Part shown: one piece after another, positions 747-53,940 of the stretch
Layout of the letters: the number at the start of each line of letters is the position of its first letter
Position numbering within the stretch: the stretch's first letter is position 1
Assembly: GCA_947498935.1 (NCBI GenBank)
Contig: CANMMM010000007.1
Span: forward strand, 124,001 to 188,000
Length of the DNA stretch: 64,000 nucleotides
From: an uncultured Aquimarina sp.
GTDB taxonomy: Bacteria > Bacteroidota > Bacteroidia > Flavobacteriales > Flavobacteriaceae
Reading direction: 5' to 3'
Translations under genes and position numbers: made by a program
Notes under the pieces: generated by a model
Told to the model about the DNA's origin: nothing
Seen by the model: only the letters and a program-made list of their open reading frames with translations
Databases searched by the model: none

Positions 747-900
747 GAAGTGGTTAAAACTTCTTAGATTTTAGCGAACATCACAAGATTTTGCGACCAA
801 ATGCAGTAATTCTTTGTCCATTAGGAGCGCTACAAAATCTAAAAATTACAAAACTTGAGTATAAAAGATCTTTCTTATAGCAAAAAAATTAAACCACTTC
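747..900. repeat. family B palindromic repeat copy
   Basis: gaagtggttaaaact...attaaaccacttc termini; internal match to other B copies. Confidence 0.8.
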
Positions 901-4342: not shown

Positions 4343-4462
4343 TGAAGTCATCTTGATTTTTTATTTTTGAAATTCATAGCAGTGCTACGGATAAAAAAAG
4401 TAACGAAATACAGGTAAATTTCGGTCATTTTTTAGGGAAAAGAAAAAGTCAAGATGAGTTCA
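4343..4462. repeat. family C repeat, internally deleted, reverse orientation
   Basis: tgaagtcatcttgattttttatttttgaaattcatagcagtgctacggataaaaaaagtaacg...aaaagtcaagatgagttca. Confidence 0.85.
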
Positions 4463-9700: not shown

Positions 9701-10142
9701 AACAGTACGCTGGACCGCTCCTAACGGCACTATATATGAGACGCATGAGATTAGTTTTGATAATGCTACCACTACTAATGTAGAAGGAGATTGGTCTGTG
9801 ACAGCTTACTTTACTAATGATTGTCCTTCTGGAAGCACAGACACGCAAACAATGAACTTTTCTATAGATCTCAATAGAATTCTATCAACACCTGAAACTA
9901 CTGCTACAGCATTAGAAATATATCCTATTCCTGCAGATAAAACGGTCTTTATAAAAGGGATGATACCGATCGATCAGAGCACCGTGTACCTATTAGACCT
10001 TAGAGGAAAACGAATACAAACTAAAACAATGTTCCAAAACAGTACAGTAGCCATTGATGTATCGGACATTCCAAAAGGGATTTATATGCTATTGATCACG
10101 CAAGAAAATAGTACTAGCATACAGAAATTGATTAAAGATTAA
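6747..10142 (+). CDS. secreted BNR/VPS10-like beta-propeller protein with T9SS type A C-terminal sorting domain
   Basis: repeated STDGG/TTDGG propeller motifs; C-terminus ALEIYPIPADKTVFIKG...DLRGKRI...DVSDIPKGIYMLLI...QKLIKD. Confidence 0.85.
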   Translation: MKTTFLTLSLCLIQTFLWAQSPCEYRNIREILANPYTNGKGQKTTFNDITQEADHFFSIKCPNLTRKEMASGAFKDDDFVKYERWKHFWKYRLNADGTLGDITTHKKNKQHRSSKTASCSNANYQTNWSEVNYNGNFGYQIDMGRVSSIGFHPTAPNTFWVGAAFGGLWKTTDGGQTYSIVNDDLPHTAVADIIVDSTNPDRLFIALSDIVWYGPAGIGIYESTDGGVTFAPTSLTFTLPQNIRIYEIDVNPNDPSELLVATSDGLYRTDDYFATHTKIYSGDFRAVRYSLHSNDAYAGGASGEFYKSTDNGVTFTFDRDFGNGQVRISVSNKQASGYVALTNDTNLAVSSDFGQTFYQRTIPETNSVVAFANGSDTNIAIGNFECYRSSNGGNSFQATTHWLGEQGLPFVHVDQRNIYTNPLQNDYIYYCNDGGVFRYSVSSNSFENLSRDLYITQYYDIAVSQTAANVLGAGSQDNGNVTRNANGQWQSYEPTADGMGQEIDFTNPAIRYYSIQLGALRRWNNGSLSYISPPNQNGKGAWETPFKLDPTNASRIIIGYKSVYASDNRGNSWTNIGANISANNLEQIAIAQSNSNRIYASQYNTVYAKNPANTSWTSYTTPVYQYISDLEVHPTQENTLYISYGGFTDSGKVYRSTDGGVNWVNISYNLPNTPILSLETYNTIEGSIFVGTYNGVYYLKNGGTAWEKYGCLPNTSVNDIEIQYLNGDKIFVGTHGRGIFEAPLTNLECDNNVIAYVNDGTNWLQQNTLTSCIGDNIYLGMQNIGTQNVQIQYPDGTIDTTPDLSTAWAFNNIQAADAGVYVVSYDNGSCIGQTSITLNIPEPLALIPYVNDGNSWLQQGELAVCSGTNIYIGVQNAGVQNFEITYPDGTTDTTPDLSTAWALNNVQPEDSGIYTVRYDNQADCSNNISTQTINLTVHADNPDLSNAVTADINQNGYNAFANFTTLEIDEGSQLALALPASLFEGTVRWTAPNGTIYETHEISFDNATTTNVEGDWSVTAYFTNDCPSGSTDTQTMNFSIDLNRILSTPETTATALEIYPIPADKTVFIKGMIPIDQSTVYLLDLRGKRIQTKTMFQNSTVAIDVSDIPKGIYMLLITQENSTSIQKLIKD

Positions 10143-10147
10143 TTGAT

Positions 10148-10165
10148 AAAAGTGTAAACCACTTC
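10148..10165. repeat. family B terminal fragment
   Basis: aaaagtgtaaaccacttc. Confidence 0.5.
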
Positions 10166-10245: not shown

Positions 10246-10406
10246 GAAGTGGTTTACACTTGTTTTGATTTCAGCGAAAAACCAAGATTTTGTGATCAAA
10301 TACAGTGATTTTTTAGTTGCATAGCAGCGCTCGAAAACTCAAAAATTACAAAATTTGAGTGCAAAAGATCGTTTTTATAACAAATTGAAAAAAGTTTAAA
10401 CCACTT
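10246..10406. repeat. family B palindromic repeat copy
   Basis: gaagtggtttacact...gaaaaaagtttaaaccactt. Confidence 0.9.
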
Positions 10407-10418
10407 TTATTAATAAGC

Positions 10419-15331: not shown

Positions 15332-15493
15332 GAAGTGATTTAAACTTTTTTGATTTCAGCGAAAAACCAAGATTTTGTGATCAAATACAGTGATTTTTTA
15401 GTTGCATAGCAGCGCTACGAAACTCAAAAATTGCAAAAATTTGAGTACAAAAGATCGTTTTTATAGCAAATTGAAAAAAGTTTAAATCACTTC
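15332..15493. repeat. family B palindromic repeat copy (complete)
   Basis: gaagtgatttaaacttttttgatttcagcg...gaaaaaagtttaaatcacttc. Confidence 0.92.
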
Positions 15494-15639: not shown

Positions 15640-15769
15640 GAAGTGGTGTACATTTTTTCGATTTTCAGTGAAAATCGAAAAAATTGTGATCAAATGCCTT
15701 AATTTTTTATGGAACTCACTGCATAGCAGTACTCGAAAACTCAAAAATTAAAAAAAGTGCAAATCACTT
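15640..15769. repeat. family B repeat copy, diverged/internally deleted
   Basis: gaagtggtgtacattttttcgattttcag...aaaaaaagtgcaaatcactt. Confidence 0.8.
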
Positions 15770-15772
15770 TTA

Positions 15773-17101: not shown

Positions 17102-17221
17102 AAGTTTTGTTTAATGATGCGCAAAAATAAAATTTTTATTCATAATTAAAAGCGAAAATATTTGATATTTTTCAATAATTTGCACCCCTTTATGAGACTT
17201 TTTTATAGAATTTATCTCTAA

Positions 17222-17369
17222 TTTTTGTTTTTGACCGAAAATGTGAAGAAATTTAACTGAACAAAGCACTTTATAAAATTCATAGCAGCGCTATGGATAA
17301 AAAAAGTAACGAAATACAGGTGAATTTCAGTCATTTTTTAAGTAAAGGAAAAAGTCAGAATGAGTTCAT
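17222..17369. repeat. family C repeat copy, reverse orientation, immediately upstream of recF
   Basis: tttttgtttttgaccgaaaatg...aaattcatagcagcgctatggataaaaaaagtaacgaaatacaggtgaatttcagtcattttttaag...gagttca. Confidence 0.88.
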
Positions 17370-22156: not shown

Positions 22157-22259
22157 CGAAGTTTTGAGTTCCGTAGCGCTGCTATGCAACTAAAAAATCA
22201 CTGTATTTGATCACAAAATCTTGGTTTTTCGCTGAAACCAAAAAAGTGAAAACCATTTC
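22157..22259. repeat. family B repeat, truncated, reverse orientation
   Basis: gagttccgtagcgctgctatgcaactaaaaaatcactgtatttgatcacaaaatcttggtttttcgctgaaa. Confidence 0.85.
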
Positions 22260-22291: not shown

Positions 22292-22452
22292 TGAACTCAT
22301 CTTGACTTTTCTTTTCCCTAAAAAATGACTAAAATTCACCTGTATTTCGTTACTTTCTTTATCCGTAGCGCTACTATGAATTTCAAAAAGTGCCTTATTC
22401 AGTCAAATTTTCTCTCATCTTCGGTCAAAAACAAAAAGTCAAGATGAGTTCA
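22292..22452. repeat. family C palindromic repeat copy (complete)
   Basis: tgaactcatcttgactttt...aaaaagtcaagatgagttca. Confidence 0.92.
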
Positions 22453-30075: not shown

Positions 30076-30131
30076 TATGAATATGTATTTTTTATTCTAT
30101 AAAAATTGTATGTTGCCTTCTAACATTCAAT

Positions 30132-30358
30132 GAAGTGATGTAACCATTTTATGAATGAACTCATATTGACTTTTTCTTTTCCCTAAAAAATGCCTGAAAT
30201 TAGCCTGTATTTCGTTACTTTCTTTATCCGTAGCGCTGCTATGAATTTCAAAAAGTGCCTTATCCAGTCTAATTTCCTCTCATTTTCGGTCAAAAACAAG
30301 AAATCAAGATGAATTCATTGGCTCTAAAGCTGAAATTAAAAAAGTGCAAACCACTTCA
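30132..30358. repeat. family B repeat interrupted by a family C copy
   Basis: gaagtgatgtaacc ... aattaaaaaagtgcaaaccacttc flanking the C copy at 30156-30317. Confidence 0.65.
30156..30317. repeat. family C palindromic repeat copy (complete)
   Basis: tgaactcatattgactttttcttttccc...cggtcaaaaacaagaaatcaagatgaattca. Confidence 0.92.
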
Positions 30359-33318: not shown

Positions 33319-33341
33319 TCCATTGCCCAAAATAGTATATT

Positions 33342-33378
33342 AAAAAAGCTATCAAATAGATTATTTGATAGCTTTTTT
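33342..33378 (+). terminator. terminator (possibly bidirectional)
   Basis: aaaaaagctatcaaat-agatt-atttgatagctttttt. Confidence 0.85.
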
Positions 33379-33405
33379 AATATACTAAGGTTGTACCCTA
33401 TTTTT

Positions 33406-35387: not shown

Positions 35388-36446
35388 ATGCGATCTAAGA
35401 GTAAATTATACATCACATTAGCACTGCCTGTACAGATACTATGTATCAAAATCCTTTCGCTTTTTCCATCTTTTATAGAACAATTTTACAGCAATGGGCT
35501 GTATGTATATATTGCGAATGCTTTTCGGTATGCACTGGGTTGGATTCCGTTTTCGTTTGGAGATATGATGTATACTGTACTCATTATACTTCTCATACGA
35601 TTTCTGATACAGAAGGTATTAAAACGCGACATCGCATGGAAAGAGGTGTTATTAGACATAGGAGCTACCCTATCGATTGTATATGCTTGTTTTCATATCC
35701 TATGGGGTATTAATTATTATCGATTACCACTGCATGAAATCCTAGCAATAGATGATCAATATACACAGGCAGAACTAGAACAGGTGTGCAAACAATTGAT
35801 TGAGCAGGCGAATACATTACATGAGCAATTAGAAAGTAATGATACTTTAGCCATACGTATGCCATATACCAAAGTCGAAATTTATAATCGAATACCTGAT
35901 GCTTACGAACAAGTACAGTCTATTGTTCCATCGCTGAATTATACACCTAAGAGTATCAAGAATTCGATCCTGAGCTTGCCCCTAACCTATATGGGATTCA
36001 GTGGCTATATCAATCCGATTACGCTCGAAGCGCAGGTAAACGCATTGATCCCTGATTATAAATCACCTACGACCAGCTGCCATGAGGCTGCGCATCAAAT
36101 AGGATTTGCTAAGGAAAATGAAGCTAATTTTATCGCTGCATTAACGACTATGCATTATGAGGACCCCTATTTTAGATATAGTGGTACTACCTTTGCGCTA
36201 AAATTCTGCATCAATGATTTATACAGACGAGATGAACAAAAGGCGATCTGCATGATAGAACAACAGCTCCGACCGGGTATTCGAAAAAACTACAGAGAGG
36301 TCAATGAGTTCTGGACGAGCTATGAAAATCCATTAGAACCTATTTTTAAAAGTACTTATGATAGCTACTTAAAGGCCAATAACCAACCCAAAGGTATCGA
36401 TACCTATAGTTATGTAGTAGCGCTTTTGGTCAATTACTACAAATAA
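35388..36446 (+). CDS. DUF3810 domain protein (putative Zn-protease-like membrane protein)
   Basis: N-terminal TMs, CHEAAHQIGFAKENEANFIA; start moved from 35307. Confidence 0.8.
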   Translation: MRSKSKLYITLALPVQILCIKILSLFPSFIEQFYSNGLYVYIANAFRYALGWIPFSFGDMMYTVLIILLIRFLIQKVLKRDIAWKEVLLDIGATLSIVYACFHILWGINYYRLPLHEILAIDDQYTQAELEQVCKQLIEQANTLHEQLESNDTLAIRMPYTKVEIYNRIPDAYEQVQSIVPSLNYTPKSIKNSILSLPLTYMGFSGYINPITLEAQVNALIPDYKSPTTSCHEAAHQIGFAKENEANFIAALTTMHYEDPYFRYSGTTFALKFCINDLYRRDEQKAICMIEQQLRPGIRKNYREVNEFWTSYENPLEPIFKSTYDSYLKANNQPKGIDTYSYVVALLVNYYK

Positions 36447-36490
36447 AGTGGTTTACACTTTTTATAATCTGCTAAAAAACGATCTTTTGT
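36444..36490. repeat. family B terminal fragment overlapping the upstream stop codon
   Basis: taaagtggtttacactttttataatctgctaaaaaacgatcttttgt. Confidence 0.55.
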
Positions 36491-36610
36491 ATTCACATAA
36501 CACGAATAAAAAATTAACGAATAATTAGCTTTTTTACGCACAAAAACACCTTTTTTGCCATGAATTCTTATTAAAAAAGTTAACTAAATGTAAAAATAAG
36601 CACTTATTTT

Positions 36611-42482: not shown

Positions 42483-42601
42483 CATCTTCTGACAGTAACA
42501 TTAAATCCATCAAAACGCAGCGTACAATACCGATAAAAACAATAATTGGTTTATGCTGCGTTTAGGATATAATATCATAGAAGATAAACTTCTTAACTTT
42601 A

Positions 42602-42650
42602 AAATAGTTTACACTTTTTCGATTTTAGCGAAAAACAAGGATTTTGTAAT
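42602..42650. repeat. left fragment of an older family B copy
   Basis: aaatagtttacactttttcgattttagcgaaaaacaaggattttgtaat. Confidence 0.75.
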
Positions 42651-42651
42651 T

Positions 42652-42812
42652 GAAGTGGTTTAAACTTTTTTGATTTCAGCGAAAAACCAAGATTTTGTGA
42701 TCAAATACAGTGATTTTTTAGTTGCATAGCAGCGCTACGGAACTCAAAAACCGCAAAATTTGAGTGCAAAAGATCGTTTTTATAGCAAATTGAAAAAAGT
42801 TTAAACCACTTC
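42652..42812. repeat. family B palindromic repeat copy (complete), nested in older B copy
   Basis: gaagtggtttaaacttttttgatttcagcg...gaaaaaagtttaaaccacttc. Confidence 0.95.
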
Positions 42813-42813
42813 A

Positions 42814-42831
42814 TTGCATAGCAACGCTATA
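42814..42831. repeat. core fragment of older family B copy
   Basis: ttgcatagcaacgctata vs B core ttgcatagcagcgctacg. Confidence 0.6.
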
Positions 42832-43498
42832 TCTTGGTAATTCCTATGTTTACATAACGTGCACTTAATGCATTTCCATTATTATTCAACACATATCGTA
42901 TTGTAACCACATCGTTTGCTTGTAGATTATACATCAATGTACCACTACCTCCCCACCAATCTGTACCAGGCAATGTAGCAAAACCTCTAGTGAGATACCC
43001 GATTAGTCCACCATTAACGAATGCCCCTAAGATATACTTCGTGGTTCCCGATGGCATATTATTGGTAGATAAACTTGCTGATATCATATATACCCCATCC
43101 GTCAGAACACGAATAGCGCCATTGCTCACCACCGTAAATGTACTTCCTGTATTAACTTGTGTATGAGAAGCATTTAGTGGAAAATCAAAATAGGTATTTG
43201 TAGCATTAGGTAATAAGGTGTTATTACCTGTCCCAAGCCTATTGAGTACTATAGTCCTACTGATATCTACTGATAATTTTTGCCAAATCGTTCCATCAAA
43301 TTGATACATTGCTAGCTCATCAGTATCGTACACAATAGAACCTTGTTCTATAGTAGCGACAGGAATAGCATTTCTCTCGACTGTAGTGATTTTTGGCACG
43401 CCCATCAATGCATCTGCATCTACCTGAGTATACCCAAAAGAATACAACAGCACTATACATACACTACACAATAGATAGTCTCGGATCACAATACTCAT
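42827..43498 (-). CDS. secreted protein with C-terminal jelly-roll/C1q-like domain
   Basis: signal peptide; GSIVYDTDELAMYQFDGTIWQKL surface-protein linker; beta-rich C-terminus. Confidence 0.5.
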   Translation of the reverse strand: MSIVIRDYLLCSVCIVLLYSFGYTQVDADALMGVPKITTVERNAIPVATIEQGSIVYDTDELAMYQFDGTIWQKLSVDISRTIVLNRLGTGNNTLLPNATNTYFDFPLNASHTQVNTGSTFTVVSNGAIRVLTDGVYMISASLSTNNMPSGTTKYILGAFVNGGLIGYLTRGFATLPGTDWWGGSGTLMYNLQANDVVTIRYVLNNNGNALSARYVNIGITKI

Positions 43499-53819: not shown

Positions 53820-53940
53820 GAGCTGGTTTAAACTTTTTTGATTTCAGCGAAAATCGAAGATTTTGCAATCAAATGCAATATTTTTTTGCTACATAGCAGT
53901 GCTACGGAACTCAAAAATTGCAAAAAGTTAAAACCACTTC
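53820..53940. repeat. family B repeat copy in the 3'UTR of the cold-shock gene
   Basis: ctggtttaaacttttttgatttcagcgaaaatcgaagattttgc...gcaaaaagttaaaaccacttc. Confidence 0.88.

Follow-up and report, generated by a model that had tools for sequence, protein, structure and literature searches.

A hairpin-forming MITE family of Aquimarina whose ends point to mobilisation in trans by an IS5-family transposase

A long imperfect palindrome that recurs between the genes of a bacterium raises the question of whether it is a mobile element, a structure that the host keeps for its own use, or both, and, if it is mobile, which enzyme moves it. We address this question for the repeats called here family B, found in the window, a 64,000-nucleotide stretch of one contig of an uncultured Aquimarina sp. 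The initial annotation had seen in them either a MITE or fold-back element mobilised in trans or a structured RNA element. The type copy, at 42652..42812 on the plus strand, is a full-length element of 161 bp flanked by an exact 3-bp target site duplication (TSD), ATT. Its two halves of 80 nt, separated by 3 nt, show 71% complementarity, and the element is indeed an imperfect palindrome over its full length, as had been proposed. Its terminal inverted repeat (TIR) of about 20 bp, GAAGTGRTTTAAACTTTTTT, also holds up, as the 19-base tip has 16 matches in the window with at most 3 mismatches, versus 0.09 expected from shuffles. At 161 bp, the type copy has room for at most 53 codons, in agreement with the earlier statement that no protein is encoded, and the element sits between ORFs of at least 100 aa.

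With the type copy as query, nhmmer recovered the copies previously listed, and the repeat family is therefore real. E-values were 2e-43 for the copy at 42652 itself, 1.6e-36 at 15332, 1e-34 at 10246, 9e-23 at 22258-22161, 4e-17 at 53821, 9e-17 at 747 and 1.5e-7 at 15640. The fragments at 36447, 42606 and 30226-30356 scored about 3e-3 to 5e-3 and were raised to 1e-7 or better by the iterated model, while 10130-10165 stayed at E=0.1 and owes its assignment to family B to its exact tip. The window contains a handful of full-length copies along with shortened, interrupted and fragmentary ones. Besides the type copy, the full-length elements, all on the plus strand, are 747..900 (154 bp, diverged, with no exact TSD left), 10246..10407 (found by nhmmer, its right tip mutated) and 15332..15493, whose TSD is ATC (GAT on the other strand). 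The copy at 15640..15772 (plus strand), directly after ribH, is shortened and diverged. Two further entries of the earlier copy list turned out to be incomplete: 22159..22259 (minus strand, nhmmer) is truncated and retains one terminal repeat, and 53820..53940 (plus strand, 121 bp, nhmmer and tip match) is internally deleted with both terminal repeats in place. A terminal fragment lies at 36445..36497 (minus strand, nhmmer and tip match), and a single terminal repeat, a right end recognised by its tip match, at 10147..10165 (minus strand). Outside family B, an inverted repeat at 33333-33387 pairs perfectly over 26 bp around a loop of 3 nt.

That these elements have moved is supported by their flanks, by nested insertions and by empty sites. 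Exact 3-bp flanking repeats (ATT, TAT, AAT, ATA and others) were seen on most of 30 full copies; in a 400-kb sample of the genome taken together with the window, 9 of 11 full copies carried a 3-bp TSD, and most elements read in other species carried one too. The type copy itself lies inside an older family B copy, whose left part is found at 42602..42651 (plus strand, nhmmer and joined flanks) and whose remainder, at 42813..42831 (plus strand), consists of the TSD ATT and the apex GCATAGCAACGCTA, the right arm being missing. Once the type copy and one ATT are removed, the flanks can be joined into a sequence that aligns to positions 5-86 of the B model (E=1.4e-9) and lacks 21 nt relative to it. 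The sequence at 42602 had been called a fragment, and it is in fact an older copy that the type copy entered and that resumes after it. Likewise, the copy at 30131..30357 (minus strand, nhmmer) had rightly been described as interrupted; the interrupting DNA, 30157-30316, is not random sequence and belongs to a second MITE family, here family A.

The spacer between ribH and mutL, which holds two copies here (15332 and 15640), provided an orthologous comparison, and in none of the 29 same-genus relatives aligned is either copy present. The empty site of the 15332 copy in relatives reads TATATTTG-GATAAT. In our genome the copy at 15332-15493 was inserted about 2 bp behind this TATATTTG motif, a -7-like motif of the small gene that comes before mutL. 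An AGGAGC upstream of this gene follows about 20 bp after the insertion, and the copy probably forms the 5' leader of the gene's transcript. Because it lies directly behind a promoter-like motif, effects on host expression can be tested at this site.

Family B is by no means confined to the window. Throughout the 4.77 Mb of the genome (286 contigs), the 20-base tip has 318 matches with at most 2 mismatches, compared to 0 with a reversed control. Copy number was estimated from this tip count and from an unbiased 400-kb sample of twenty 20-kb stretches, which contained 32 family B matches, 9 of them of at least 146 bp, although a few of the weakest may belong to family A. Scaled to the genome, this sample corresponds to about 380 copies and fragments, about 107 of them full length. 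Of about 41 full-length matches, all except one share 93-100% identity with the type copy. The 40 candidates scored gave at least 40 full-length copies in this range, of which one besides the type copy is 100% identical. Short (<500 bp) and devoid of a transposase or any other gene, bounded by TIRs, flanked on most full copies by a TSD with a constant length of 3 bp, and dispersed in many copies with presence/absence differences, family B has the features by which prokaryotic MITEs are recognised.

A partner for these ends was traced through unpaired tip variants in relatives. Aquimarina longa (genome G019) has two identical 931-bp insertion sequences (IS) with the TIR GAAGTGATTTAAACTTTTTW, the TSD ATA and a single ORF, which scores 119.2 bits against the IS5-family model NF033580 (cut-off 110) and exceeds the cut-offs of PF13586, PF01609 and PF13340; a curated transposase model above its cut-off and a DDE domain thus place this IS in the IS5 family. 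The ends of family B match autonomous IS5-family IS in G019, G010, G015 and others, and pieces of such an element are found in the genome of the window as well. There, transposase pieces on contigs C20, C132, C30 and C133 are 87-93% identical, with the same TIRs at both ends, and the flanks on C20 and C30 share the triplet AAT; we infer that C20, C132 and C30 represent one IS copy. The assembly of this genome has no intact copy of the IS, whose ends coincide with contig breaks, and a DDE_Tnp_1 search of the genome returned partial contigs only, none with complete ends. IS of the same IS5 branch that have such ends are found across Bacteroidota, several of them with 3-bp TSDs. In a comparison of 56 genomes from the genus, 11 of the 14 with a transposase match had at least 4 tips, versus 8 of the 42 without (Fisher p=1e-4), and IS and tips were associated with a Spearman coefficient of 0.55, in counts to which each IS copy itself adds up to two tips. 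Eight genomes had at least 4 tips and no transposase match. Beyond the genus, of a further 299 genomes drawn from the wider family only 19 had any tip match, among them G181, which carries several 161-bp family B copies.

Beyond the 20-bp repeat, no significant similarity was found between the MITE interior and the ends of the IS (best shuffle p = 0.07). Derivation of family B from this IS by simple internal deletion, which would make it a type I MITE, was accordingly discarded, as the interior is not shared beyond the TIR. By its sequence, family B would be a type II MITE, related to its partner through the TIR only.

Dispersed intergenic palindromes in many copies could also be REP or REPIN elements spread by a RAYT, and a REP-associated tyrosine transposase had indeed been suggested as a partner to look for. 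The genome does contain two weak matches to the Y1 transposase model PF01797 (L031 and L032), one of them with an internal stop codon. At neither locus, however, does an element end occur within 1.5 kb, so that no Y1 transposase flanked by the repeat was found, and Y1 HUH transposition would not be expected to go with 20-bp TIRs and 3-bp TSDs. The TSDs, together with an IS5 partner with identical ends, largely refute dispersal by a RAYT, which we regard as extremely improbable.

The IS and the MITE share their ends, both carry 3-bp TSDs, copies are found inserted into other MITEs, sites are empty in relatives, and IS and MITE co-occur across the genus. We are thus highly confident that, as in the first of the two original proposals, these repeats are MITEs mobilised in trans, and that the enzyme moving these non-autonomous DNA transposons is a transposase of the IS5 family. 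The DDE transposase of the one-ORF IS of about 930 bp would recognise the TIRs of family B and insert the element into AT-rich intergenic sites, duplicating 3 bp of the target. That this transposase actually moves family B is suggested by these shared ends and by the co-occurrence.

It remains to account for the hairpin. When 21 elements from Aquimarina and three further genera were aligned, with those from other genomes 71-86% identical to the type copy, the alignment supported a hairpin of 60 pairs, in which 95.4% of the cells are paired, versus a mean of 90.0 in shuffles and at most 63 in slid versions. Changes on both sides affect 17 of the pairs, versus 10.2 in shuffles, a difference that overstates the strength of covariation because the alignment tested also served to derive the structure and the shuffles keep shared ancestry; the slid controls are nonetheless far below the observed pairing. 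In all 21 variants folding is better on the forward than on the reverse strand, and the length is nearly constant at 160-162 bp. Such conservation is what one might expect of a structured RNA or DNA that benefits the host, such as a terminator, an mRNA stabiliser or an sRNA, under host selection at each copy, and to this extent the structured-RNA alternative was well founded, the hairpin being kept across genera by compensatory changes. Individual copies, however, decay neutrally and show no sign of host selection. Single-sided changes within the genome give G-U and A-C equally often (37 each), copies are oriented with transcription in 16 cases and against it in 17, and their positions are proportional to intergenic space, with none in coding sequence and no bias towards convergent genes. 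Moreover, no Rfam covariance model matched 42500-42900 at E<=1, and copies are missing from relatives at the one spacer tested. A benefit to the host at individual sites is therefore improbable as the reason for the hairpin, which seems instead to be maintained in the mobile lineage, either by selection on transposition or by correction between the arms.

The second of these possibilities concerns the conservation of the hairpin only and leaves the identity of family B as a MITE untouched. Replication template-switching or arm-to-arm correction could keep a palindrome with no selection at all, and some data are in line with it: a variant found in one terminal repeat of a copy often recurs in the other, as with GAAGTGA at the two ends of the 15332 copy and with pair 7-161, changed from GC to AU, and relatives carry shortened palindromes of 50, 57, 76, 85 and 129-135 bp. 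Correction should nevertheless have erased the mismatches that make the left arm (AGCGAAAAAT) differ from the right (GCTATAAAAAT), an asymmetry conserved across genera, and we consider correction a possible explanation, short of a probable one. Other variants depart from the standard length as well. The short palindromic elements L203 (50 bp), L217 (76 bp), L229 (85 bp) and L235 (57 bp) have both ends and 3-bp TSDs, and B elements of 168-194 bp (L232 and L233 in G023, L216 in G004, L218 and L221 in G020) contain extra internal pieces, a ACCGACCGATAGGAAGGTGCC.. stretch and a TCCCGAGTACTCGGGA palindrome, which probably come from other repeats.

Family A bears on the same issue. Its copies in the window, at 910-1068, 4364-4461, 17209-17367, 22293-22451 and 30157-30316, have the TIR GAACTCATCTTGAC; the family measures about 160 bp, with TIR GAACTCATCTTGACTTTT and 3-bp TSDs on several copies, and 13 copies were found in 464 kb. 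It has the length and the central apex of family B, and its interior is more similar to that of B than shuffles are. Its ends correspond to those of Zunongwangia IS5 elements (TGAATTCATCTTGACTTTTCTTTT; L137, L138), relatives of the B partner in a sister IS5 clade; a family-A type IS sought in our own genome was not found, the query re-finding B-type pieces only. Our tentative suggestion, to which we give a rather low probability, is that the hairpin of 160-162 bp, whose apex is fixed (CATAGCAGCGCTACG or its complement), forms a portable module of these elements that is itself under selection, was maintained by compensatory change in several genera of Flavobacteriaceae and became joined to the ends of two different IS5 clades. 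Such a hairpin may act in transposition, for instance through cruciform extrusion or strand-specific folding, or shield the element from the host. For family B itself, we take the internal hairpin to be kept for the persistence of the mobile lineage or through arm-to-arm correction, and not for the host.

MITEs linked to IS5, MITEs in high copy number and MITEs forming stem-loops are all known already, and family B adds to a known type. In Porphyromonas gingivalis, the TIRs of BrickBuilt, MITE239/MITE700 and MITE464/PgRS match IS5-family elements of the same genome (PMC4596501), so that both there and here MITEs of Bacteroidota have IS5-family ends. The P. gingivalis elements, however, begin with GAGACC.. 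or ACGTCA.., number about 10-20 copies and have irregular TSDs, and the interior of BrickBuilt is a tandem repeat (PMC4596501), whereas in family B the ends are different, the hairpin extends over the full length, the TSDs are regularly 3 bp long, and copies and fragments run into the hundreds. MITECca01 of Cardinium cOegib, another high-copy MITE of Bacteroidota, is present in 169 copies that are intergenic or within other mobile elements (PMC9769881); it is derived from IS982, measures 240 bp and is found in one strain only (PMC9769881), while family B has IS5 ends and is common to many species. The Correia/NEMIS, ERIC, QMITE2 and Chunjie-type MITEs are likewise short, AT-rich or intergenic, non-coding elements with a stable stem-loop (PMC10969869), a form that family B shares, with different ends and partner transposases and with no sequence relation claimed. 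The IS5-family IS (NF033580, transpos_IS5_3), the autonomous partner, has the TIR and 3-bp TSD of family B, which in turn lacks a transposase and has an unrelated interior. No published MITE of Aquimarina was found in our literature search, and what is new is this abundant Aquimarina family, set apart from the others by their published descriptions. Its well-conserved full-length hairpin and the one apex common to two families are what distinguish it most.

With these results, a repeat that is very abundant in an Aquimarina genome can be assigned its likely source of mobility, and one MITE family of a single length and hairpin is seen to span a large marine genus and beyond. As covariation between species is combined with neutral decay of single copies, this system can separate selection in the mobile lineage from use by the host. 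If the portable hairpin is under selection, it could have a role in transposition or in the protection of the element.
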